Below, in pieces: positions 3,332 through 18,829 of a stretch of DNA of 64,000 bases. Position numbers and translations under genes: made by a program. The stretch's first letter is position 1; every line of letters begins with the position of its first letter. The DNA comes from Candidatus Melainabacteria bacterium. GTDB taxonomy: Bacteria; Cyanobacteriota; Vampirovibrionia; Obscuribacterales; Obscuribacteraceae. The notes under the pieces were generated by a model that saw nothing but the letters and a program-made list of their open reading frames with translations, was not told where the DNA came from and made no database searches. The stretch is taken from positions 248,001 to 312,000 of the forward strand of contig JAFKGK010000001.1 in assembly GCA_017307165.1 (NCBI GenBank). The letters run 5' to 3'.

Positions 3332-4651
3332 CTATTGTCTTTCGAGGTGCGGCCATGCTTTGCGATTGGCAAATGTCGCCGAGCTCTTTTGTGTTAGGTT
3401 GGTCAGGGTCTTGCCGGTTGCTTTGCGGTAAGCGCGCGGTGCAATCAAGTCTAGAGCTGCAAAACCCAGATCCTTGGGCATGTTTTTAGGATCAGCGAGG
3501 ATCTCTTTATATAGCTGTTCGCCATTGGCTACGGCACAGCAACGTGCAGCAAAAAACCAGTCCTGGCTAAATTGCTGGTTGCCATCGATGGCATTTTTTT
3601 GTTGCGATGGCACAAATGCATCTTTGCCGATCTCGGCAGCAAAAACCTCGCCATCGAGTTGATACAGCATCTGTGCGAGCATTTCTTGGAAGGCTACTAT
3701 ATTGCGCGGATGTCCCTCGCTTAAAAACGCTATGGCAGGTTCGATGACGGCATCGTCATTGCCTTCTTCGTCCCAATTGAGCAGATCGATGACATCCCAA
3801 AAATCCTGTTCGGTCATGGGGGGGGTGTCGCCAGCCTGATCTAATAACTGGAGTTCTTCGCGAGGGAGATCTAAAGAAAGGTCCACTAGATCGGCCAGGG
3901 TAAATTCGGGACGCTTTGGGGAGCTGCGCTTCCACTTTATGCGTACGGACGGCAGTTGTTGCCTAAGCCGGGCTATACCTGCCTCTGTGACTGAGGTGTT
4001 AAAGAGGTAGAGCCTGAGTAGATTTTGAAGGCCCTGGAGTTGCAATATGCCTTCATCGGTGACCTTGGTGCCCGATAGGCCTAACAATTTTAGTTCGCTC
4101 AGACCGACCAGATGCTCGAGGCCCAGATCGTCGATATCGGTACCATTGAGCCAGAGTTCTTTTAGATCTTGCATGGTCGACAAGTGCGCCAGGCCATCCG
4201 ATGAAATTGCCGTGGCAGTGAGGCCGAGGGATTCTATCTGGTCGAGCCGAGAGACAAAGCCCAGAGCTGCGTCTGTTATAGGGGTATATGCCAATTCAAC
4301 GACTTTGAGAGTATTGAAGTGTCCTATGTGCGTCAGACCCAAATCGGCTATCTGTGTCCGGCTGAGATCCAATACCGAAAAGGTATCAGCGGGGAGGTTT
4401 TCTAGAGCCGCTAGAGAACTGGCGGCGCTGGAGCTGACCTTGAGTCTGTATTTGCGCTCTTCAAATTTTTCGAGGACCACATCCCCACAGGCATCTTCGA
4501 TCCACTCCCAGTGGATCGGTTGGTTTTGGGGATTGACTATCAATCCCTGAGCGGTACTCAAGAGCTCCCAGGTATTGGGCTGCTCCCGCGGGGCGCAATA
4601 AATGCCGCCCATAGAAAATGCTTGTGGAAATCTTAGTAGTCGCTCAGCCAT
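3332..4651 (-). CDS. Leucine-rich-repeat protein with C-terminal DUF4240-like domain
   Basis: 439 residues. Residues about 85-245 form six or seven leucine-rich repeats of the short bacterial type with a consensus like L-x-L-x-x-T-x-I-x-D-x-G-L-x-x-L, for example VLDLSRTQIADLGL and LWLNGTDIDDLGL; these usually bind proteins. After a linker, residues about 278-430 (MTEQDFWDVIDLLNW, then FAALDLIAPRAYRKATGK) resemble DUF4240, a domain of unknown function. The ~75 N-terminal residues are not recognised. There is no signal peptide, so the protein is likely cytoplasmic. It is the first gene of a minus-strand block. A perfect -10 hexamer lies only 8 bases before the ATG and no Shine-Dalgarno is visible. 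Confidence 0.7.
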   Translation of the reverse strand: MAERLLRFPQAFSMGGIYCAPREQPNTWELLSTAQGLIVNPQNQPIHWEWIEDACGDVVLEKFEERKYRLKVSSSAASSLAALENLPADTFSVLDLSRTQIADLGLTHIGHFNTLKVVELAYTPITDAALGFVSRLDQIESLGLTATAISSDGLAHLSTMQDLKELWLNGTDIDDLGLEHLVGLSELKLLGLSGTKVTDEGILQLQGLQNLLRLYLFNTSVTEAGIARLRQQLPSVRIKWKRSSPKRPEFTLADLVDLSLDLPREELQLLDQAGDTPPMTEQDFWDVIDLLNWDEEGNDDAVIEPAIAFLSEGHPRNIVAFQEMLAQMLYQLDGEVFAAEIGKDAFVPSQQKNAIDGNQQFSQDWFFAARCCAVANGEQLYKEILADPKNMPKDLGFAALDLIAPRAYRKATGKTLTNLTQKSSATFANRKAWPHLERQ

Positions 4652-4659
4652 AGCAACAA

Positions 4660-4665
4660 ATTATA
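4660..4665 (-). promoter_or_regulatory. -10 element 8 bases before the LRR gene
   Basis: Perfect TATAAT on the minus strand ending 8 bases before the ATG at 4651. Transcription would start at or just before the start codon, suggesting a leaderless mRNA. The -35 region is poor. Confidence 0.4.
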
Positions 4666-4689
4666 GAATGTCTCTTGGTGTTATTCTGT

Positions 4690-4725
4690 TCTAAAGGTAG
4701 CAAAGGATCTAAAGTTAGCAAAGGA
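4690..4725 (+). repeat. Tandem 18-bp duplication containing the ribosome-binding site
   Basis: Two adjacent 18-base units, 4690-4707 and 4708-4725, differ at one position (TCTAAAGGTAGCAAAGGA and TCTAAAGTTAGCAAAGGA). Each ends in a purine-rich AAAGGA. The second is 8 bases before the ATG at 4734 and can serve as the ribosome-binding site. Confidence 0.7.
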
Positions 4726-4733
4726 AATCTTAA

Positions 4734-5195
4734 ATGGAAGAGATCGACGCACAGGGCCGCCAATTATTGATAGACCGCCCGACTCTGACTAGAGGCAGGC
4801 TGTCAGTCTATCGCGAATCTCTCTGCGATGACGATTGGTTTCCAAGGCTCAATGTCACCCTAAAAAAATCAGGGTCTGACGCCGTGCTCTGGCAATGGAC
4901 CACGCATACACTACCCGTGGACACCGAAGAGCCACCGCCCTATGGCGAAGATATCCTGCTTGAAAAGTATTTTGAACTCGATGAGCCAGTCAAGTCTCCA
5001 CGTGGCCTCGAAGTTGTTTTTAGCCTGGCAGAAGGTCTGACCAACAGGGGGTCGGTAGAGCAGTTTTCTGCTTCGCTGTATCTCTATCCTGCTAGTTTTG
5101 ATGACCGTGGTGTGCAAGTCGGTGTAGTTGATTTTCGTCAAGGACTACGCGCCAATTCGATGCCCATGTTTGTGAGATTCAACTTTCCGTGGTAG
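4734..5195 (+). CDS. Hypothetical cytoplasmic protein
   Basis: Not recognised. It encodes 153 residues without signal peptide or membrane segment. The sequence reads like a compact beta-rich domain (RLSVYRESLCDDDWFPRLNV, LWQWTTHTLPVD, VQVGVVDF), rich in Trp, Asp and Tyr. The ATG has the purine-rich AAAGGA of a duplicated element upstream. The last 17 bases overlap the 3' end of the convergent small membrane-protein gene. The LRR gene is divergent from it across an 82-base gap. Confidence 0.55.
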   Translation: MEEIDAQGRQLLIDRPTLTRGRLSVYRESLCDDDWFPRLNVTLKKSGSDAVLWQWTTHTLPVDTEEPPPYGEDILLEKYFELDEPVKSPRGLEVVFSLAEGLTNRGSVEQFSASLYLYPASFDDRGVQVGVVDFRQGLRANSMPMFVRFNFPW

Positions 5196-5689: not shown

Positions 5690-7153
5690 TTACTTAGATT
5701 GGTCTTGTTGTATCAAATCTCTTATCGGCAAATAGAGTTGATCGGCCAAATATTGCTGGCCCTTGGGAGTCAGGTGGGCCGAGTAGAAAAGAGCGAGCTG
5801 CTCTTTTTCACTGTATTTTTCTGCGGCTGCTTGTGCATCTATGTAAGGCAAGCCGAGCTTTTTGGCCTGATTCTCGACTAAAGCCAATTCGCCTTTGTGA
5901 TCCAAGCCCTGCTCGTAGCCCGACATGCTAGGCAGGGCCGCCAGAGTAGCGCGGCTGGGTAGGCCTAATATGACTAGTTTTGCATCATGGGCTTTAGCAA
6001 TCTGGTTCATATCGGCAAATAATGCTTCTAGCGTCTCTGACAGCAATTTGACAAATACTTTGGATGATTGAGTGATCACAGGTGCAGGCTTTGTCTCGTG
6101 TTGCAGCTTTTGGCCCGCGGCAAGCGGGTCTTTTGAGGAGCCAGGCAAGCCACCCAGTTTTTCTTGCGGTTTTTTATCATCGATGTAGTATTGAACGTTA
6201 AAGCTCGATGATTGATCTGTTTTTATCAGGCCGGACAGTTGTTTTGACACGGCCTTTTGGCATTCTGCCAGGAGTAACCCGGACGATAGGTCTTTGTGCA
6301 GTTGGCGTGCCGATTTGCCTGGATCGGTAAAATAATTGACGATCCATTTGTAGACAGGGTTGTGAAAGCCCAGCTCGGTCTCGGCTTGGCAAACCAATCC
6401 CCAGATGCGGCTGTTTTGCCTGAGCCATTCGGCCTGGCACATATATCTGCCGCGCATGGACTTGCGCCAGGACGTGACAGAGGTCTTGTCGATCACCAGG
6501 GCTTGACCTGGCAATTTGAGAGCCATTGGACGGACATTGGACAGCATCTGATCTGGTGTGGCCCAGTTTTCAAAGATGTCCCGGCCGTCGTAGCCAATGA
6601 TCACCATATCCGGTGCCCATCGCATTACTTCCGTTTTCATGAGCAGGTATTCTTGCACTGTCGAATAACCAGATACGCCAAAGTTGAGGACTTCTACAGG
6701 CCGGCCCAAAGACTTGGAAAGCTTTTTTTGCAGTATCTGGCCAAATGACTGCTCAAGCCTCACTTGTATGGATTCGACCTGGCTGTCTCCGAGCAAAGCA
6801 ATGCGATAGACGCCCCTAGGCTTGGTTATGGTGGCGTCTTTTTCGCGCATGCCCAGACGATTGAGATAAGAGCAAGCGTAGCCTTCTTTGCGCCAGGTGA
6901 CCTTTTTATTGGTCATATGGCGGGTGCCGAGGTCGGGGTCTAGCTTAAAGATTTCTTCTTCGCCAAGGCCAGCGAGATTGAGTATGCATTCGGTAGCAAA
7001 AATAAAAATTGCGCCTATCAAGACGTATGACAAGACTGTCGTAAACAAATTGCCTTGTTTTTTGCCCTGGTCAGGCCATTTACTTGCGCGTTCCGACGCA
7101 TCCAATCCCAGGGATTGGTCTGTGTCTATGGGGCGGTCTTTTAAATCCTGCAC
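5690..7153 (-). CDS. Membrane-anchored SGNH/GDSL-type hydrolase (probable polymer acyltransferase partner)
   Basis: 487 residues. One membrane segment lies at about residues 38-60, so most of the protein is probably outside the cytoplasm. The SGNH block I is IALLGDSQVE with Ser124 as nucleophile. Block II is probably LNFGVSGYST, and VIIGYDGRDI occupies the region of block III. The usual C-terminal D-x-x-H is represented by YSAHLTPKG, with His but a Ser where Asp is expected. Such proteins cooperate with MBOAT acyltransferases in acetylating polysaccharides (AlgX/AlgJ or PatB type). The MBOAT gene lies 38 bases upstream on the same strand, which supports a joint role. The start is GTG; no ATG lies close by. 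The substrate cannot be told from sequence. Confidence 0.7.
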   Translation of the reverse strand: MQDLKDRPIDTDQSLGLDASERASKWPDQGKKQGNLFTTVLSYVLIGAIFIFATECILNLAGLGEEEIFKLDPDLGTRHMTNKKVTWRKEGYACSYLNRLGMREKDATITKPRGVYRIALLGDSQVESIQVRLEQSFGQILQKKLSKSLGRPVEVLNFGVSGYSTVQEYLLMKTEVMRWAPDMVIIGYDGRDIFENWATPDQMLSNVRPMALKLPGQALVIDKTSVTSWRKSMRGRYMCQAEWLRQNSRIWGLVCQAETELGFHNPVYKWIVNYFTDPGKSARQLHKDLSSGLLLAECQKAVSKQLSGLIKTDQSSSFNVQYYIDDKKPQEKLGGLPGSSKDPLAAGQKLQHETKPAPVITQSSKVFVKLLSETLEALFADMNQIAKAHDAKLVILGLPSRATLAALPSMSGYEQGLDHKGELALVENQAKKLGLPYIDAQAAAEKYSEKEQLALFYSAHLTPKGQQYLADQLYLPIRDLIQQDQSK

Positions 7154-7191
7154 TATCTGTCTTTAAACCTCAATCCAATACTCGGACGGGA

Positions 7192-8700
7192 CTAAAATTG
7201 AAAATAAACGAATGGGACTGCTTCCATGGGCTTTGAAGCCATTACTAGAATGCAGGCGGAGGCCCAGGTAGCGATACGCAATTGGTTTTGGTAGGCACTA
7301 AATATAGTGGCTAGCCAACCCGAGTGCTCTCTCAGGTTGCTGAGAATCAGCCAAAAAATAAAATATGTCGCTCCGATTACGAGTACACCTGATTTGAGCA
7401 AGGGTTCTGCCATGGTGCAATCGAGGTTGGCAAAATTGATAAAGGATCGCCAGATCAAAGCACCACCTGCCAGGTCGGGGGCTCTAAACAAAGAATAAGT
7501 GGTGATCACAAAGATAAAGGTAAAAACTGAGCCCAGGATGACGGCGATCTTGCTTTGAGCCAGGCTATTGGTCTTGGCCCAGATCTCGTACTCACGATGG
7601 ACGATCAAGCCAAAACCCTGAGTCGCTCCGAAAAAGAGATAGTGCCAGCTGGCCCCGTGCCAAAAGCCGCATACCATCATGGTGATCATGAGATTGCGCC
7701 AGAGACCGAAGCGCCCGGAGCGGGATCCACCGAGCGGTATGTATACATAGTCTCGCAACCAGCTACCAAGAGACATGTGCCATTTGCGCCAAAACTCGGT
7801 GAGGTCTTTAGAAAAGAATGGTAGATCAAAATTTTCGGGTAGACGTATGCCCATTAAAAGAGCTGAGCCACGTCCCATATCTGTATAGCCCGAAAAATCG
7901 CAGTAAACTTGCAAGGCAAAACCAAGGGCCGCCAGCCAGGCATCTGGAGCCGAAAGCAAGTCGGTAGTGGAAAAGGGACGACTGATGATTGCAGCGATAG
8001 GATCTGCCAGAGCGGCCTTTTTAAACAGGCCCTGCATGATCAAAGAGGTGCCTTCGTAAAAGAGTGGCCTGTCTAGCTTTTGTGGAGCTCTCAATTTTGC
8101 GACAAAATCTTCGTAGCGCTTGATTGGGCCGGCAATTTGGCTGGGAAAAAAGCTTGCGAAGGCCGCAAACTCGAGAAAGCTTTGCACTGGCTTCTTGCCT
8201 TTGTATACATCGGCAAGGTAGTGCACAAACTCGAAAACAAAAAAGCTGATGCCCAGAGGCAGCATCACATTGAGGACGATTGGATCCAGATGTGTATGTC
8301 TAGCCTGATTGATCAGCGCTGTGATGTTTTCAAAGAAGAAATTGGCATACTTGTAGTAGCAAAGCGCCCCAACGTTGACGAGTAGACCGCAGATCAAATA
8401 AGCCTTGGCGATGGACCTTTGAGTATTTAGGCTTTTGGATATGCCCTTACCCAAAAACCAGTTAAATAAGGTGAATGCCAGGAGCAAAACACCGTAGGCG
8501 GGGATCCAGCTCATATAAAAAATGTAGCTGGTCGCGACCACGACAAACAGGCGTGCGCTGCCTCTGGTTTGCCAATAGGCAAGTACGGCCAGGGGCAGGA
8601 AGATCAGGTATTGAAGGCTCGAAAAAATCAAATCGCAAAACCTGGTGCAGTGTTTCAGGAGTATACAAGAGGTGGATTTGGATTGGGTGAAGCCTAGCAT
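7192..8700 (-). CDS. MBOAT family O-acyltransferase (AlgI-like)
   Basis: About 500-residue polytopic membrane protein of the membrane-bound O-acyltransferase family, which moves acyl groups across the membrane to exported polymers. Diagnostic features are the N-terminal FSSLQYLIFLPLAV, LPLGISFFVFEFVHYLADVY, DFWRKWH-like LTEFWRKWHMSLGSWLRDY, and FWHGASWHYLFFG with the family's conserved His. The start is uncertain: ATG at 8700 gives a ~23-residue N-terminal extension without a clear ribosome-binding site, while TTG at 8631 matches the usual AlgI N-terminus. It precedes the SGNH gene by 38 bases, as in alginate and peptidoglycan O-acetylation clusters. Confidence 0.88.
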   Translation of the reverse strand: MLGFTQSKSTSCILLKHCTRFCDLIFSSLQYLIFLPLAVLAYWQTRGSARLFVVVATSYIFYMSWIPAYGVLLLAFTLFNWFLGKGISKSLNTQRSIAKAYLICGLLVNVGALCYYKYANFFFENITALINQARHTHLDPIVLNVMLPLGISFFVFEFVHYLADVYKGKKPVQSFLEFAAFASFFPSQIAGPIKRYEDFVAKLRAPQKLDRPLFYEGTSLIMQGLFKKAALADPIAAIISRPFSTTDLLSAPDAWLAALGFALQVYCDFSGYTDMGRGSALLMGIRLPENFDLPFFSKDLTEFWRKWHMSLGSWLRDYVYIPLGGSRSGRFGLWRNLMITMMVCGFWHGASWHYLFFGATQGFGLIVHREYEIWAKTNSLAQSKIAVILGSVFTFIFVITTYSLFRAPDLAGGALIWRSFINFANLDCTMAEPLLKSGVLVIGATYFIFWLILSNLREHSGWLATIFSAYQNQLRIATWASACILVMASKPMEAVPFVYFQF

Positions 8701-13813: not shown

Positions 13814-13852
13814 TTTGGTGATCCGGGCTAGACTAAAAGGGGTTTTATTTTG

Positions 13853-14761
13853 ATGGCTGGTTACAAACAGACGCTTGCATCGAGTATCTTTCTCGTTGCG
13901 GTGATTTTGGGCACGTCGATATCGCAAATTGCAGGCTTTATTTTTGTTGCACCACCAGTAGAGGCACAAACCTTGCAAGAGCCCAGAGCCAGCTATGACA
14001 AGCGTTTTATCGACGATCTCATCGCCAAGATGACCCTGCAAGAAAAATTAGGACAGATGAATCTCTTGTCCATAGGTTCGGATGTCACTGGCCCCGTCTT
14101 GTCCGAAGGTGTCGAGGACAAGATTGCTCGTGGTGAAGTTGGTGGCGTCTTTAATGCTTTTGGTCTACCCGCCTGCAAAAGGCTTCAGGACATAGTGATG
14201 CAAAGATCGCGTCTCAAAATCCCGCTCATTTTTGGCTATGACGTGATCCATGGCCACAAGACTATTTTTCCCATCCCGCTTGCTCTCTCTTGTTCTTTCG
14301 ATCTCGATCTCATCCAAAAGACAGCAGCTGCGGCTGCTGATGAGGCTACTGCTGATGGTATCAACTGGACATTTTCGCCTATGGTCGATATCTGCCGCGA
14401 TCCCCGCTGGGGGCGGATCATGGAAGGTGCGGGTGAAGACCCTTATCTTGGGAGTCGTATAGCCGAAGCCATGGTGCGAGGATACCAGGGCCCAGGTATG
14501 AGACCAGGCGATCTTAGCTTGCGGTATGCCAAAGACAAGCTCTTGTCTTGTGTCAAGCATTTTGCCCTCTATGGAGCTGCCGAGTCTGGTCGCGACTATA
14601 ACACTGTCGATATGAGCCGGGGGCGCATGTTCAACGAATACATGCCTCCGTACAAGGCCGCTGTGCTGGCCGGTGCTGCAACAGTTATGACTAGTTTTAA
14701 TGAGGTCGATGGAATACCTGCATCCGGCAATAAGTGGCTAATGACTGACCTCTTTTCTTAA
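13853..14761 (+). pseudogene. GH3 beta-glucosidase (BglX-like), N-terminal fragment of a disrupted gene
   Basis: 303 residues: a signal peptide (through PPVEAQT) and the first part of the GH3 TIM barrel, with LTLQEKLGQMNLL-like MTLQEKLGQMNLLSIG, FGYDVIHGHKTIFPIPL, NWTFSPMVDICRDPRWGRI and SCVKHFALYGAAESGRDY. The frame stops soon after GNKWLMTDL, before the catalytic Asp region (usually V-S-D) and all later domains. Intact BglX enzymes have about 750 residues. A degraded C-terminal piece of the same family is found at 17240-17445 on the same strand, so the gene was interrupted by the intervening DNA. The ATG at 13853 has AAAAGGGG upstream. Even if expressed, it should be inactive. Confidence 0.85.
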
Positions 14762-14877
14762 TCCCAGACCACTCACTGTAGCTCCTAATTCCCAGCCTTG
14801 GACCACTCCAGATTGTACGACCGACCGTATAGGCCGGTAGCTTAGCAGTTCAACCCATCTCTCCACAGGACAGCAAA

Positions 14878-15147
14878 ATGCCACAGAACGAATCAAAAGC
14901 TCACCAAGCCAACCGGTCCTTTTTTCAGCGCTTCTGGTGGCTTCTTTCCTTTCTGATCGGGTTCATTTCTGTTGATTTGATCATCGCTTTGGACTTCTAT
15001 ATTCACGAAATGAATCACAACAATGAGGGCTTAAATGTGTTCCTCGGATGCCTATGGATGGGCTTATTTGGTGGGTTTCCTGCTGGACTGTTGTGTGTGC
15101 TGTGCGCATGGCTGGTCAAATATTGGCGCAGCCGCAAATCAACGTAA
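14878..15147 (+). CDS. Small membrane protein in the insert
   Basis: 89 residues with a basic N-terminus and two membrane segments, about 19-39 (WWLLSFLIGFISVDLIIALDF) and 55-79 (LGCLWMGLFGGFPAGLLCVLCA), and a basic C-terminus (KYWRSRKST). No family recognised. AGGA is placed 8-9 bases before the ATG. The stop codon abuts the stop of the convergent lysozyme-like gene without any gap. The size and topology would suit an immunity protein, holin or small membrane regulator, but nothing in the sequence decides this. Confidence 0.55.
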   Translation: MPQNESKAHQANRSFFQRFWWLLSFLIGFISVDLIIALDFYIHEMNHNNEGLNVFLGCLWMGLFGGFPAGLLCVLCAWLVKYWRSRKST

Positions 15148-16467
15148 TCAAGGCAGATAGCGAAGAACGTTCTTAATATGTTCGGAAGCGCTTATTGTTT
15201 CAGCAGTGTTTGCCCAGTACTCCTTTCTTTGATCCCAGTGCTGGGCCTTCGATAGTTCGATATTTGGATGATATAACGCCTTATAAACCCGGTGCCCGTG
15301 TCCATCTGAATATGAGTAAACATCAGGGTTGTATGCGTATGCCAGTTGCGCATCAGTGGGATTCTTGATTCCGTGTTTATGCAAATCCTCCAGGAGGGTA
15401 GCTGTTTTTGCGGCTACGATCATTGCCACACAGTCTGCATCGAGTAGGGCTCTTAACTCATGGCCAGGACCTGAATAGCCCTTGGACTCAAGGAAATGGC
15501 GAAACTGTGGATAGTGATTTTCAAATTTTCTAATCCCTTCTGTCGTAATTTGCGTCATGCCTAATGTCCATCCGCCGTCCTTTCCAAGCTTTGCGGCCAC
15601 GTCTTGCTTGTGATCTTCAAATCCATAGCACTCTAGCTCATTGCGCACATAGGCTTTCATAATGCTGTTCGAAACACCACCCAGTTGAGGGAAACAGGCT
15701 TTTGCTTCCTCCCAGGCTTTCGGGTTTGCGTTGGTTGTTGCGCTCATCAAATTCGCTTCCATGCCTGCAATTGGATGTTCGCTCGTCCATGTTTTGATTG
15801 TACGCATAGCAACGTTAGCCGCTGCTATTGTCGATTCCTTTGTTATGCCTAACTGCTCCATGCTTGGAACGAGCGTCGGAGGCACCATGTAACCATCCAG
15901 AGCTTGGGCAATCTGCTGAGCCTGTGAATCGTTTTTGAGTTCCTGTGCCGGTTGCTCAAGCTTTGGTCCGTTTGGCATTACGTTCGCCGCCAGCAATACC
16001 GGCTCTGGGTGTGCGCTGCTGTCGAACAATTCAAATTTTTGTGATGCTTCCTTCTTCGCGCCTGGTCTATAGAACATGTCTGTGGCTGATTCCTCTTGCC
16101 CTAACATGTGATGCTGTTGGGTCTCGCGCCAGTTTGCTTGCAATGCTTGGTTCTTTATCACGCCGCCGCGCAAGATGGTTCCTGATGCGGCCTCAGGTTT
16201 GGCTACTTCCTTTGGTTTGTCTGCTTCGTCACTCATTGCGGTAGCTCCGGGCTTGTAGACTTTCATATACCCTTTTTCGGTATAGGCCAAGTCATCCAAT
16301 AAGTGCAAGTCGCCAAAGATGCCCATGGTATCGGTATCGGTGGAGCTTGTTGCCAGCTTTCTCATGTCAGTCATGTTCCAGGAGCTTGCCGCAATGTTGG
16401 CATAAGTGGCTACCTCGGCTTGTTCAGGGCCGCTGCTAATTCTCTCGGCTATCTCCTGGTGTGCCAT
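15148..16467 (-). CDS. Protein with C-terminal lysozyme/lytic-transglycosylase-like domain
   Basis: 439 residues with no signal peptide. Residues 1-260 are low in similarity to anything I know, with Ala/Glu/Lys-rich linkers (about 75-125). Residues about 266-385 show the layout of a soluble lytic transglycosylase fold: YVRNELECYG (candidate catalytic Glu277), GWTLGMTQITTEG (301-311, like the S-x-G-x-x-Q-I motif), and LAYAYNPDV (375-383, like the A-Y-N motif). It may cut peptidoglycan glycan strands. Lack of a signal suggests another export route or a lysis-type role. AAGGG precedes the ATG. It sits inside DNA that interrupts a GH3 gene. Confidence 0.6.
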   Translation of the reverse strand: MAHQEIAERISSGPEQAEVATYANIAASSWNMTDMRKLATSSTDTDTMGIFGDLHLLDDLAYTEKGYMKVYKPGATAMSDEADKPKEVAKPEAASGTILRGGVIKNQALQANWRETQQHHMLGQEESATDMFYRPGAKKEASQKFELFDSSAHPEPVLLAANVMPNGPKLEQPAQELKNDSQAQQIAQALDGYMVPPTLVPSMEQLGITKESTIAAANVAMRTIKTWTSEHPIAGMEANLMSATTNANPKAWEEAKACFPQLGGVSNSIMKAYVRNELECYGFEDHKQDVAAKLGKDGGWTLGMTQITTEGIRKFENHYPQFRHFLESKGYSGPGHELRALLDADCVAMIVAAKTATLLEDLHKHGIKNPTDAQLAYAYNPDVYSYSDGHGHRVYKALYHPNIELSKAQHWDQRKEYWANTAETISASEHIKNVLRYLP

Positions 16468-16669
16468 TGCTGCCCTTTAGAGCTGATAATACTTGGGAGA
16501 TCTGAACTTCTCCTGAATACTAGGCTATCTGGGTTTGTTGGCTAAGTTTTGGCAAGGAGTCTGCTTAAACTAGAGCACGGTGCTCGACCTGCATCATTAG
16601 ACTTCATCGCTTTTCTCGATGTGCTCAGCGACTTGTTTTAATTTGCCATCCTGCTCTAATTGTTTCAAG

Positions 16670-17239
16670 TCATTTATGCCATTCTAAATCCACCTTGTCC
16701 TTTATCAGGTCGATGTCTCCTTTCTTTCTCTCCTGCTGGTTTCGATACCAAATATCTTTAATGAGCTCTCGAAACTCTTTGAGGATTTCACCTATGCCGG
16801 TGAAGGAAAAGCCGCCAGGCGGACTCATCTTAGCCTTGTGAATACGGCACCGCTGATCAGGGGAGGCGTATAGATCAATCTCTTGGTAAATTTGTACTGG
16901 TGTTGAGGACACGGCTATTCCAAATGGATTGATTGCCGCTGCTGCATTGCCTGATTCCAAAACATCAAGCCACATCTCAAAGGGAAATGGCTCAGGGTAG
17001 CGCATTTCGCGTTTGCTAAAAATGTTCTTGATTAAGCCTTCGCGGTTTTTCAAATCGTTGGCCCAGCGCTCTGACCAAAGGTATGTTGCTAGACGAGAAT
17101 CGTAAATGCGCGAAATGCTTACAGCCAGTAATTCTAAATCGCCTGTTGTCCAGTCTCCATCTGTGAAGAATGAAATAGTCGATGACTCATTTTTTGCTTC
17201 TGTGGCGTCGCTGTCATCATCGTCGTCATCAACAGGCAT
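16670..17239 (-). CDS. Hypothetical acidic protein at the edge of the insert (possibly 5'-truncated)
   Basis: About 189 residues from the ATG at 17239. It starts with an acidic run (PVDDDDDDSD), then a folded-looking domain (SFFTDGDWTTGDLELLAVS, YPEPFPFEMWLDVL) and a charged helical C-terminus (IGEILKEFRELIKDIWYR). Not recognised. DNA directly upstream of the ATG is the GH3 remnant, and no ribosome-binding site is visible, so the true start and promoter may have been lost at the junction. Just past the TGA another frame (to TAA at 16597) reads NDLKQLEQDGKLKQVAEHI, which looks like coding sequence; the natural C-terminus may have been cut off by a frameshift. Confidence 0.5.
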   Translation of the reverse strand: MPVDDDDDDSDATEAKNESSTISFFTDGDWTTGDLELLAVSISRIYDSRLATYLWSERWANDLKNREGLIKNIFSKREMRYPEPFPFEMWLDVLESGNAAAAINPFGIAVSSTPVQIYQEIDLYASPDQRCRIHKAKMSPPGGFSFTGIGEILKEFRELIKDIWYRNQQERKKGDIDLIKDKVDLEWHK

Positions 17240-17445
17240 CGCGACAGGCAAACCTATAGTCCTGGTGCTCTTTAATGGCCGTCCTTTGACTCTGTCATGG
17301 GAGGATCAAAACATGGATGACATCCTCGAGACCTGGTTTAACGCATTGCTCTCGCGCCTCGAGAAGCAAAAACTGTGCAATTTGCAATCACGGCTGCCGA
17401 CCTGGCATTTTATGGCAGTGATTTAAACCTTTGTCCCAAGTAAGT
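17240..17445 (+). pseudogene. GH3 beta-glucosidase, degraded C-terminal remnant
   Basis: The plus strand reads ATGKPIVLVLFNGRPLTLSW and on to DILETWF, matching the conserved start of the BglX C-terminal domain strand (K-P-V-V-L-V-L-x-N-G-R-P-L). From 17342, two bases out of phase, it reads RIALAPREAKTVQFAITAAD then LAFYGSDLN, matching the fibronectin-III-like end of GH3 enzymes. About 150 expected residues between these blocks are absent, so there is an internal deletion with a frame change. Together with the fragment at 13853-14761 this marks one broken gene. No start codon or ribosome-binding site serves it. Confidence 0.8.
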
Positions 17446-17480
17446 AAGAGCTTAATTTTGGGGGTTGTAAAAGTTTGATA

Positions 17481-17810
17481 CTAGGCAAAATAATCTAAGA
17501 CCAGTCGGTTTGCGACTGGTCTCTGGTTTTGGAGATCGTCTGCTAGCTCGCGCGCCAGGCCCGGCCAGTCTGCGAGCTCTATGCCCTGGTAGCGCTTTGA
17601 TTTGAGGTCTGATGCCTGCTCCATCCAGCCACGCCAAAAATGGATCGCTATGATTAATTGCTCGTCGCCAGGCAGAGTCTTTTGATCATCATTGAGATAG
17701 GGATGCATGTTGGGCTCCTCGATGCCTATGTCGGCAAAAAGCCTCAATTCGTGACGGATTGCGTCGGCACGCAAACTATCGATTAATATATTTCTGAGAG
17801 GTTCTAGCAT
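17481..17810 (-). CDS. Hypothetical protein
   Basis: 109 residues from the ATG at 17810; a TTG 12 codons upstream is possible. The product is cytoplasmic, helical and rich in Leu, Asp, Arg and Trp (LIIAIHFWRGWMEQASDL, ELADWPGLARELADDL). Not recognised. It diverges from the alpha/beta hydrolase gene across only 26 bases, so their control regions must overlap. A second reading frame at 17452-17637 is a shadow. Confidence 0.5.
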   Translation of the reverse strand: MLEPLRNILIDSLRADAIRHELRLFADIGIEEPNMHPYLNDDQKTLPGDEQLIIAIHFWRGWMEQASDLKSKRYQGIELADWPGLARELADDLQNQRPVANRLVLDYFA

Positions 17811-17836
17811 AGTGTTTTGAAAGTGTTGCTGTCTTG

Positions 17837-18829
17837 ATGCACCCAAGCCAAATTTTATTGATTATAGCCTTGATTACGAGCCTTTTGCCTTTTGCGTCTT
17901 TGGAGACCGCCATGGCTGCATCGCAGGAAACACGCATAGAGGGAGTAAGCCCTCGCGACAACTTTTATCTAGTGACTAATAGACGCACCGTCGAAAAGAA
18001 GGACGGGCATATGCAGTACAACAGGCTCGGTGGAGATCTGTTTGGCAAGCAAGATGATGCTTATAGCTTTAGCGTCAGCAAGCCGGGTAGCACTGTATTG
18101 ATCGATCGAGACAGATTTTTTGCCGATCTCGAGAGTCGCGAATGCCGCGATCGTCCGCTGGTAATATTTGTGCATGGCTGCTGCGTATCCCTGGGAGAGA
18201 TGTTTAAACAGGCGCGTGGCCTCAAAAATGCATTCGAAAAACAATGCGGCCCCATCGACATGGTCTGCTATGACTGGTCTACGCCTTCGGGCAATTATCC
18301 GGCCTCTCTCTCTCGAGTCGAAGCTATGAATGCTTCGTTCAACGAATTTTTGCAGCAATTACCAGAGGGCCTCAAGTCTCACAAGGGGCGCCCCCTGATC
18401 CTCGTCACTCATTCGCTTGGCGCATATTGTCTTGTCGATAGGCGCAGTAAAGATAGTGTCATAGACCGTGACTCGATTTTCAGTGCTTGCTTTTTTTCAC
18501 GGCCTGATATTACTCAAGACCAATTTTTTGCAAGTTATCCTGCCTTCAAAAATATTGCAGGTAGGTACTTTTTACTCAAGGCGAGCAATGACCCAAATCT
18601 CAAACTTTCTGCCTTGGTGAGGAGTCGCCCCTTTGCCAGCAACCGTCAAAATCGTCGCTTGGGTCTGTTTGCTGATGATGACGCTCTTGAACGTCTCGAT
18701 CCGGAACGTTTGTCAGTGATAGACGTTAGCGAGCTCAAACTCGGTCACGTTATACCGTATGAAAAAATCGCCTCTCTTTATAAAGAGATGATAGGGATAA
18801 AATCAGGAGAAACACGCAAAATAAACTAA
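17837..18829 (+). CDS. Exported alpha/beta hydrolase (DUF900-like)
   Basis: 330 residues. The signal peptide runs to about residue 28 (LLPFASLETAMA). The core resembles the DUF900 branch of the alpha/beta hydrolase superfamily: oxyanion strand LVIFVHGCCVSLGEMF (108-123), DMVCYDWSTPSG (141-152) and nucleophile elbow THSLGAY with Ser193. LGHVIPYE near the C-terminus supplies a likely catalytic His. The substrate is unknown; an esterase or lipase acting outside the cytoplasm is probable. The gene ends 9 bases before the RND adaptor gene and may be transcribed with it. No strong ribosome-binding site is seen. Confidence 0.75.
   Translation: MHPSQILLIIALITSLLPFASLETAMAASQETRIEGVSPRDNFYLVTNRRTVEKKDGHMQYNRLGGDLFGKQDDAYSFSVSKPGSTVLIDRDRFFADLESRECRDRPLVIFVHGCCVSLGEMFKQARGLKNAFEKQCGPIDMVCYDWSTPSGNYPASLSRVEAMNASFNEFLQQLPEGLKSHKGRPLILVTHSLGAYCLVDRRSKDSVIDRDSIFSACFFSRPDITQDQFFASYPAFKNIAGRYFLLKASNDPNLKLSALVRSRPFASNRQNRRLGLFADDDALERLDPERLSVIDVSELKLGHVIPYEKIASLYKEMIGIKSGETRKIN

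Follow-up and report, generated by a model that had tools for sequence, protein, structure and literature searches.

What is a lysozyme-like protein that carries no signal peptide doing inside a broken glycosidase gene, encoded stop to stop against a small membrane protein? The question is raised by a 64,000-nucleotide stretch (the window: positions 248,001 to 312,000 of contig JAFKGK010000001.1, GenBank assembly GCA_017307165.1) from a Candidatus Melainabacteria bacterium, a non-photosynthetic relative of cyanobacteria in the order Obscuribacterales whose assembly comprises 4.6 Mb on 35 contigs and is 92% complete. An initial annotation described three open reading frames (ORFs) here, encoding a 439-aa protein, a facing protein with two transmembrane (TM) segments whose stop abuts the first, and an acidic protein; all three are present as described and their coordinates are confirmed. 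It suggested a peptidoglycan-targeting effector partnered by a membrane immunity protein or a holin, or else cargo of a mobile element. We find that the 439-aa protein and its facing partner belong to a previously undescribed, mix-and-match toxin family, and consider with good confidence that the former is a modular antibacterial polymorphic toxin or bacteriocin and the latter, tm2, its cognate immunity protein.

The 439-aa protein is modular, combining a shared N-domain (residues ~78-152) with a distinct C-domain (~228-439). Of 50 genomes from the same family, 24 hold relatives, one to five each, and some of these relatives are partial, matching either residues ~62-155 alone or ~228-438 alone. 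The N-domain has 34 matches in 18 of the 53 genomes of the order (alignment A3), with the motif V-I-x-N..Q-A-x-W-R-E-T-Q-Q..H-M-L-G-Q-[DE]-E-S-A-T-D..K-F-E-L-F-D. Within Obscuribacterales metagenome-assembled genomes of one family, this constant domain is joined to at least seven C-terminal types: lysozyme-like, two kinds of zinc-metallopeptidase-like domain (HEGFH, as HEGFHATHQF in loci L032, L102 and L103; HExxH in L062 and L094), ART-like (L050), REase-like (L054, L100), papain-like (L099), NlpC/P60-like (L097) and DUF6883 (L057, Pfam E=1.3e-6); L095 and L096 carry a C-domain without an assigned type. Note that all labels except DUF6883 were given by eye, Pfam returning nothing significant for the rest. 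Swapping can be seen directly when the window is compared with REEB67 (L021): DNA identity is 78-91% over codons 1-150 and mostly 54-71% beyond, a break at about codon 150 that marks a C-terminal swap at the domain border. N- and C-domain identities are likewise discordant in several locus pairs; between L036 and L041, for example, the N-domains share 22% identity, the C-domains 81% and the partners 71%. The trafficking domain that had been suspected in the N-terminal part therefore survives as a shared, separable N-domain, for which trafficking is a candidate role. Two further features of N-domain proteins deserve mention. L050, L054, L062, L095, L096, L099 and L100 have in common a middle region of ~200 aa (GIGxGLNxAKExxK...NPEGSTEGG) between N-domain and toxin, which is not in Pfam and may serve cytosol-acting toxins as a pre-toxin or translocation domain. 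On its reverse strand L094 holds two metallopeptidase-like N-domain ORFs in tandem, at 5763-6065 and at 7183-8010; one is broken and represents a toxin remnant.

Both of two possible starts of the 439-aa protein may be used. ATG 16467 is preceded by a good ribosome-binding site (RBS), and codon statistics over residues 1-77 (0.26 bits/codon in frame) favour translation of this prefix; relative to L021, its third-position changes outnumber first- or second-position ones, yet there are many replacements. A GGAG lies upstream of M78, at the border of the N-domain, and the proteins of many relatives begin at this position.

The second line of evidence is pairing. The two stop codons abut at 15147/15148, and the toxin/2-TM duo recurs elsewhere: 20 of 21 toxin-type lysozyme homologues have a small ORF with at least two predicted TM segments at their 3' end, as do 11 of 197 control gene ends taken from the same loci (Fisher p about 1e-20, relatedness left uncorrected). 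The 20 paired loci, all with an intact Glu, are the window, L023-L029, L035-L039, L041, L043, L055, L056 and L058-L060. In 17 of them the genes run tail to tail with ends abutting or overlapping; the three co-directional pairs (L029, L055, L060) all lack the N-domain. Left outside this count were a paralogue group, L044-L052, along with L048 and L053, and L031, L033 and L034. L048 and L053 have no facing TM protein of this sort. L031, L033 and L034 are lysozyme-domain paralogues that carry Asn in place of the catalytic Glu (GN/NN) and lack a convincing TM partner; they are possibly inactive derivatives. L044-L047, L049, L051 and L052 are very similar lysozyme-domain paralogues from one genus, with a domesticated look.

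Might the protein then serve in peptidoglycan remodelling, as a housekeeping or developmental enzyme that has a membrane regulator and no role in conflict? The paralogue group L044-L052 speaks for this, since it has no N-domain and most of its members nonetheless face a convergent protein with 2-3 TM segments. However, the patchy spread across family genomes, the swapping of C-termini, the diversity of toxins on one N-domain, the remnants and a disrupted insertion site (see below) are typical of conflict systems. We regard a housekeeping function as unlikely.

The third line of evidence is co-divergence. In the 14 loci that have N-domain, C-domain and partner, the distance between two partners goes with that between their C-domains (Mantel r=0.82, p=2e-4; partial r 0.79 with the N-domain held constant) and not with that between their N-domains (partial r 0.10 with the C-domain held constant). 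Partner divergence that tracks the C-domain, not the N-domain, is the signature of cognate immunity. In addition, partner and toxin types correspond: where the N-domain is joined to a lysozyme-like, HEGFH or NlpC/P60-like domain, the partner has TM segments or a signal-peptide-like start and is convergent in 18 of 18 cases, whereas N-domain toxins with other C-domains have soluble partners, co-directional in 8 of 8 (Fisher p=6e-7; counted by unrelated toxin type, 3 vs about 6, p is about 0.01 by hand). With the conserved pairing and the type-matched partners of N-domain toxins, co-divergence makes a peptidoglycan-targeting effector with a membrane immunity protein well supported.

The holin is a different matter. 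Endolysin/class II holin pairs place a lysozyme-like enzyme next to a 2-TM protein with both termini inside (N-in/C-in), and a signal-less lysozyme-like enzyme beside just such a protein is what we see here, so that the pair might be a phage-type cassette that lyses its own cell, e.g. to release other cargo. Against this stand the tail-to-tail transcription, the co-divergence of the partner with the catalytic domain, which is not required of a holin, and the pairing of the same N-domain, on other toxin types, with soluble or secreted partners. We recognised no phage genes nearby, and the toxin had no match in 50,697 phage records, an IMG/VR pattern scan, plasmids or viral contigs. On orientation and co-divergence we rejected the holin/endolysin reading; a lysis cassette would be very improbable indeed.

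Co-divergence likewise bears on a third possibility, namely that the enzyme is secreted to digest other cells in predation or competition, in the manner of Vampirovibrio or Bdellovibrio. Predation has been reported for the related Vampirovibrio chlorellavorus (PMC4451040), but the protein lacks a signal peptide, and co-divergence of partner and toxin implies self/non-self specificity among close relatives. We consider a predatory enzyme very unlikely.

What, then, might the C-domain do? The lytic-transglycosylase-like layout noticed at the outset is present (E277, the predicted catalytic Glu; G303-M-T-Q306; A-Y-A-Y-N380) and conserved among 22 aligned C-domain homologues, with Y281, G303 and Q306 invariant and N276, E277, Y377 and D382 at least 90% conserved. 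The GH23/SLT motifs Glu, G-x-x-Q and Y-N thus stand in SLT order and context, with L-L-D-P-x... ahead of A-Y-x-Y-N and S-x-H-x-x-N-V-L as C-terminal motif. This order matches that of Slt70, MltC and MltE, whose C-terminal motif, Y-V-K-N-V-L, is also similar; unlike them, the C-domain is missed by Pfam SLT, has a longer E-to-Q spacing, belongs to a protein without signal peptide, in agreement with the initial annotation (nor is there a TM segment at its N-terminus, hydropathy over 12 residues peaking at 0.66 within the first 45), and comes with a 2-TM partner. A sister subfamily (L056, L059, L101) provides the link at profile level, scoring 33.2 against SLT (best of 100 shuffles 18.9, best of 71 unrelated ORFs 22.7) and matching the window's family at E=2e-39. 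The SLT-like assignment rests on the motifs and this sister-subfamily match. The C-domain is likely to hydrolyse peptidoglycan.

The partner, tm2, has predicted TM segments at residues 22-40 and 62-80 and, under the positive-inside rule, is predicted to have both ends inside (N-in/C-in). In all 14 partners checked the termini carry a net positive charge and the acidic loop a net negative one, which is why we infer a periplasmic loop. Close homologues of tm2 adjoin lysozyme-toxin genes (L023, L024) or a toxin remnant (L042), and one more lies at a contig edge, with an internal stop. No family in Pfam, NCBIfam or PADLOC covers the partner. J-domain-like genes adjoin the 2-TM partner in two unrelated loci, L025 (10316-11056, minus strand) and L056 (downstream of the 91-aa partner).

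A number of observations weigh against the interpretation of the pair as toxin and immunity protein. As regards the statistics, related loci are not independent, so that the Fisher p-values make the evidence look stronger than it is; hydropathy was the sole criterion for TM segments; and soluble partners were hand-picked as the adjacent co-directional ORF. tm2 gets no backing from codon statistics, its support coming from conservation. L101, an N-domain lysozyme, has no TM partner, and a transposase-like ORF faces its toxin. (In L101, on the reverse strand at 3975-5135 and downstream, this is a 999-aa ORF, Tn3-type transposase-like by eye, 35 bp from the toxin.) As regards the enzyme, the toxin has no significant match in Pfam, NCBIfam, PHROG or PDB sequences, and the window's own subfamily scores 16.2 against an SLT profile of 35 sequences (HHalign), not significant given a shuffled maximum of 16.15; this non-significant alignment does pair E with the catalytic Glu of SLT, and G and Q with the G..Q of GLMQ. 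Structure prediction from an alignment two sequences deep was of little help: the full-length model was unusable (predicted local distance difference test, pLDDT, 39.9) and the C-domain model weak (predicted template modelling score, pTM, 0.67; pLDDT 61.7). Foldseek searches of PDB and BFVD with this weak model yielded nothing significant; MltC had by far the top TM-score, 0.31, among the 50 PDB matches listed, also not significant (E=4.4). Lastly, no exporter is in evidence: phage-type sheath and VirB4 were not found in the 92%-complete host genome, nor VipB of the type VI secretion system in 50 family genomes, and WXG100 proteins occur in the host genome alone, on a possibly foreign contig, and not in toxin-bearing relatives.

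Keeping these points in mind, we suggest the following course of events for a toxin and its immunity protein. The toxin, made without a signal peptide, would leave the producer, with the N-domain serving as a shared carrier for export and/or entry, and reach the periplasm of a related cell, where the lysozyme/SLT-like C-domain would cut peptidoglycan. In the producer, the 2-TM protein would be seated in the inner membrane, its acidic loop facing the periplasm, and would block the toxin there; being expressed from the opposite strand, it could be made independently of the toxin. Toxin domain and partner may spread by recombination as a C-terminal toxin-plus-immunity cassette beneath different N-domains. 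What the computations show is the modularity, the exchange of C-termini, the conserved pairing, the co-divergence and the orientation rule, and from these we deduce activity, inhibition, topology and delivery.

Delivery could be colicin-like (free and receptor-mediated) or follow a so far unrecognised secretion route. WXG100, VirB4, phage sheath and VipB do not explain it, since they are absent or, in the case of WXG100, limited to that possibly foreign contig, where four tandem WXG100-like ORFs (G000:C16:91702-93195, locus L168) lie by Ser/Thr-kinase-like and AceK-like genes, unique among the 50 family genomes; the contig may be a contaminant, or the locus may be a genuine ESX-like system. 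Known trafficking domains (WXG/LXG, RHS, FilH, PAAR) were not detected on the toxin by Pfam and NCBIfam; together with the markers above, the search takes in some delivery systems only. Were the toxin instead delivered by a contact-dependent secretion system so far unrecognised, the N-domain acting as signal, the difference from a free bacteriocin would lie in the delivery half alone. MIX-, WHIX- and LXG-type marker domains occupy an N-terminal position comparable to that of the N-domain, which is short and, in many toxins, stands at the very N-terminus or close to it, and the one to five copies per genome fit as well. The lack of candidate machinery just described counts against a contact-dependent effector, and the colicin-like gene orientation favours free bacteriocins, by analogy only; we regard such an effector as a real possibility that stops short of being probable. 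To the same tentative degree we propose that Obscuribacterales may have a colicin-like bacteriocin class with its own N-terminal delivery domain, unrelated to proteobacterial colicins, that reached the colicin layout independently.

How far does the likeness to known systems go? In colicins M and B the immunity gene is carried on the opposite strand and has a promoter of its own (PMC8469651); ionophoric colicins likewise have it on the opposite strand, and otherwise it lies downstream in the operon (PMC9517006). Colicins and S-pyocins share with our toxins an N-terminal targeting part, a C-terminal toxin and the lack of a signal peptide, and here, as in colicins, exported partners are convergent and soluble partners co-directional. 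The likeness consists in gene orientation and the missing signal peptide: no sequence similarity was found, the N-domain is short (~75 aa), the phylum is different, receptor, TonB box and lysis gene were not identified, and colicin M cleaves lipid II where the C-domain here is lysozyme-like. Bacteriocin 41 of Enterococcus faecalis, as summarised in PMC5821083, degrades peptidoglycan and has a membrane immunity protein with two or four TM helices, as proposed here; unlike our toxin it is an endopeptidase from a Gram-positive producer. Polymorphic toxin systems (Zhang et al. 2012, PMC3482391) have in common with ours a constant N-part, an exchangeable C-terminal toxin, an adjacent cognate immunity gene and remnants. 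They differ in that the N-domain here is in none of Pfam, NCBIfam and PHROGs, that immunity genes of envelope-acting toxins are mostly tail-to-tail, and that, among the systems searched for, no known trafficking module or linked secretion system was detected, which is not an essential feature. No PADLOC family covers the toxin, and, judged by title and abstract, papers on toxins or secretion systems in Obscuribacter/Melainabacteria do not describe the system. The toxin family looks restricted to this bacterial family because a search of 386 genomes across the phylum (alignment A1) matched the window's own genome alone.

The flanks of the pair are pieces of one GH3 glycosidase gene, which bears out the earlier description of an insert. 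The N-terminal piece aligns with residues 13-269 of an intact 750-aa relative, similarity stopping at 14755, and the C-terminal remnants correspond to residues 528-564 and 694-723, with a frame change between them. Since these pieces flank the ORFs, a block of ~2.5 kb took the place of the middle of a now dead GH3 gene. A second internal deletion, of the relative's residues 565-693, adds to the decay; open GH3 frames, most of them 730-850 codons long, occur in relatives. The intact GH3 genes of four relatives sit in other neighbourhoods, so that the comparison did not reveal the ancestral empty site. Carriage by a mobile element is unproven: insertion into GH3 and C-terminal swaps do show recombination mobility, but no transposase, integrase or matching long or terminal repeats mark the insert ends within 14400-17700, and we rejected mobile-element boundaries on that account. 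Nor is a gene trio supported: unlike the duo, it does not recur. Homologues of the acidic ORF are missing from the 50 family genomes, and it has no significant match in Pfam, NCBIfam or PADLOC and no clear RBS; we excluded it as a third member because it lacks homologues and starts at the GH3 junction, and it may be a truncated or unrelated gene. A 121-aa ORF (17481-17846, minus strand) between the GH3 remnant and an alpha/beta hydrolase has good coding statistics and no Pfam match.

Table 1. Features of the toxin locus and its flanks, in window coordinates.
Feature	Position	Strand	Evidence and remarks
439-aa modular toxin gene, whole ORF	15148..16467	-	RBS AAAGGG; no signal peptide
Prefix, residues 1-77	16237..16467	-	Conserved with L021; status uncertain, M78 being an alternative start at the N-domain
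Shared N-terminal domain, residues 78-152	16012..16236	-	Alignment A3; candidate trafficking/targeting domain
Lysozyme/SLT-like C-terminal toxin domain, residues 228-439	15148..15786	-	Motifs; profile-profile link to SLT via sister subfamily
tm2, 89-aa 2-TM membrane protein, predicted immunity protein	14878..15147	+	RBS AGGAC; conservation
GH3 (beta-glucosidase-like) N-terminal remnant	13850..14755	+	Pfam Glyco_hydro_3 E=4e-51; ends where cassette starts
GH3 C-terminal remnants, same gene	17244..17431	+	tblastn with intact GH3 proteins; Glyco_hydro_3_C E=9e-4
Acidic ORF, 189 aa, orphan	16670..17239	-	Extendable to TTG 17251; start abuts GH3 remnant

These findings point to an arsenal of interbacterial toxins in an uncultured and little-known group for which the papers searched report none, and several uncatalogued toxin and immunity families are gained at once. 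If the orientation rule (convergent immunity genes for envelope-acting toxins) proves general, it would help to recognise bacteriocins and to guess their site of action from sequence, and the common N-domain gives a starting point from which to search for the delivery route.

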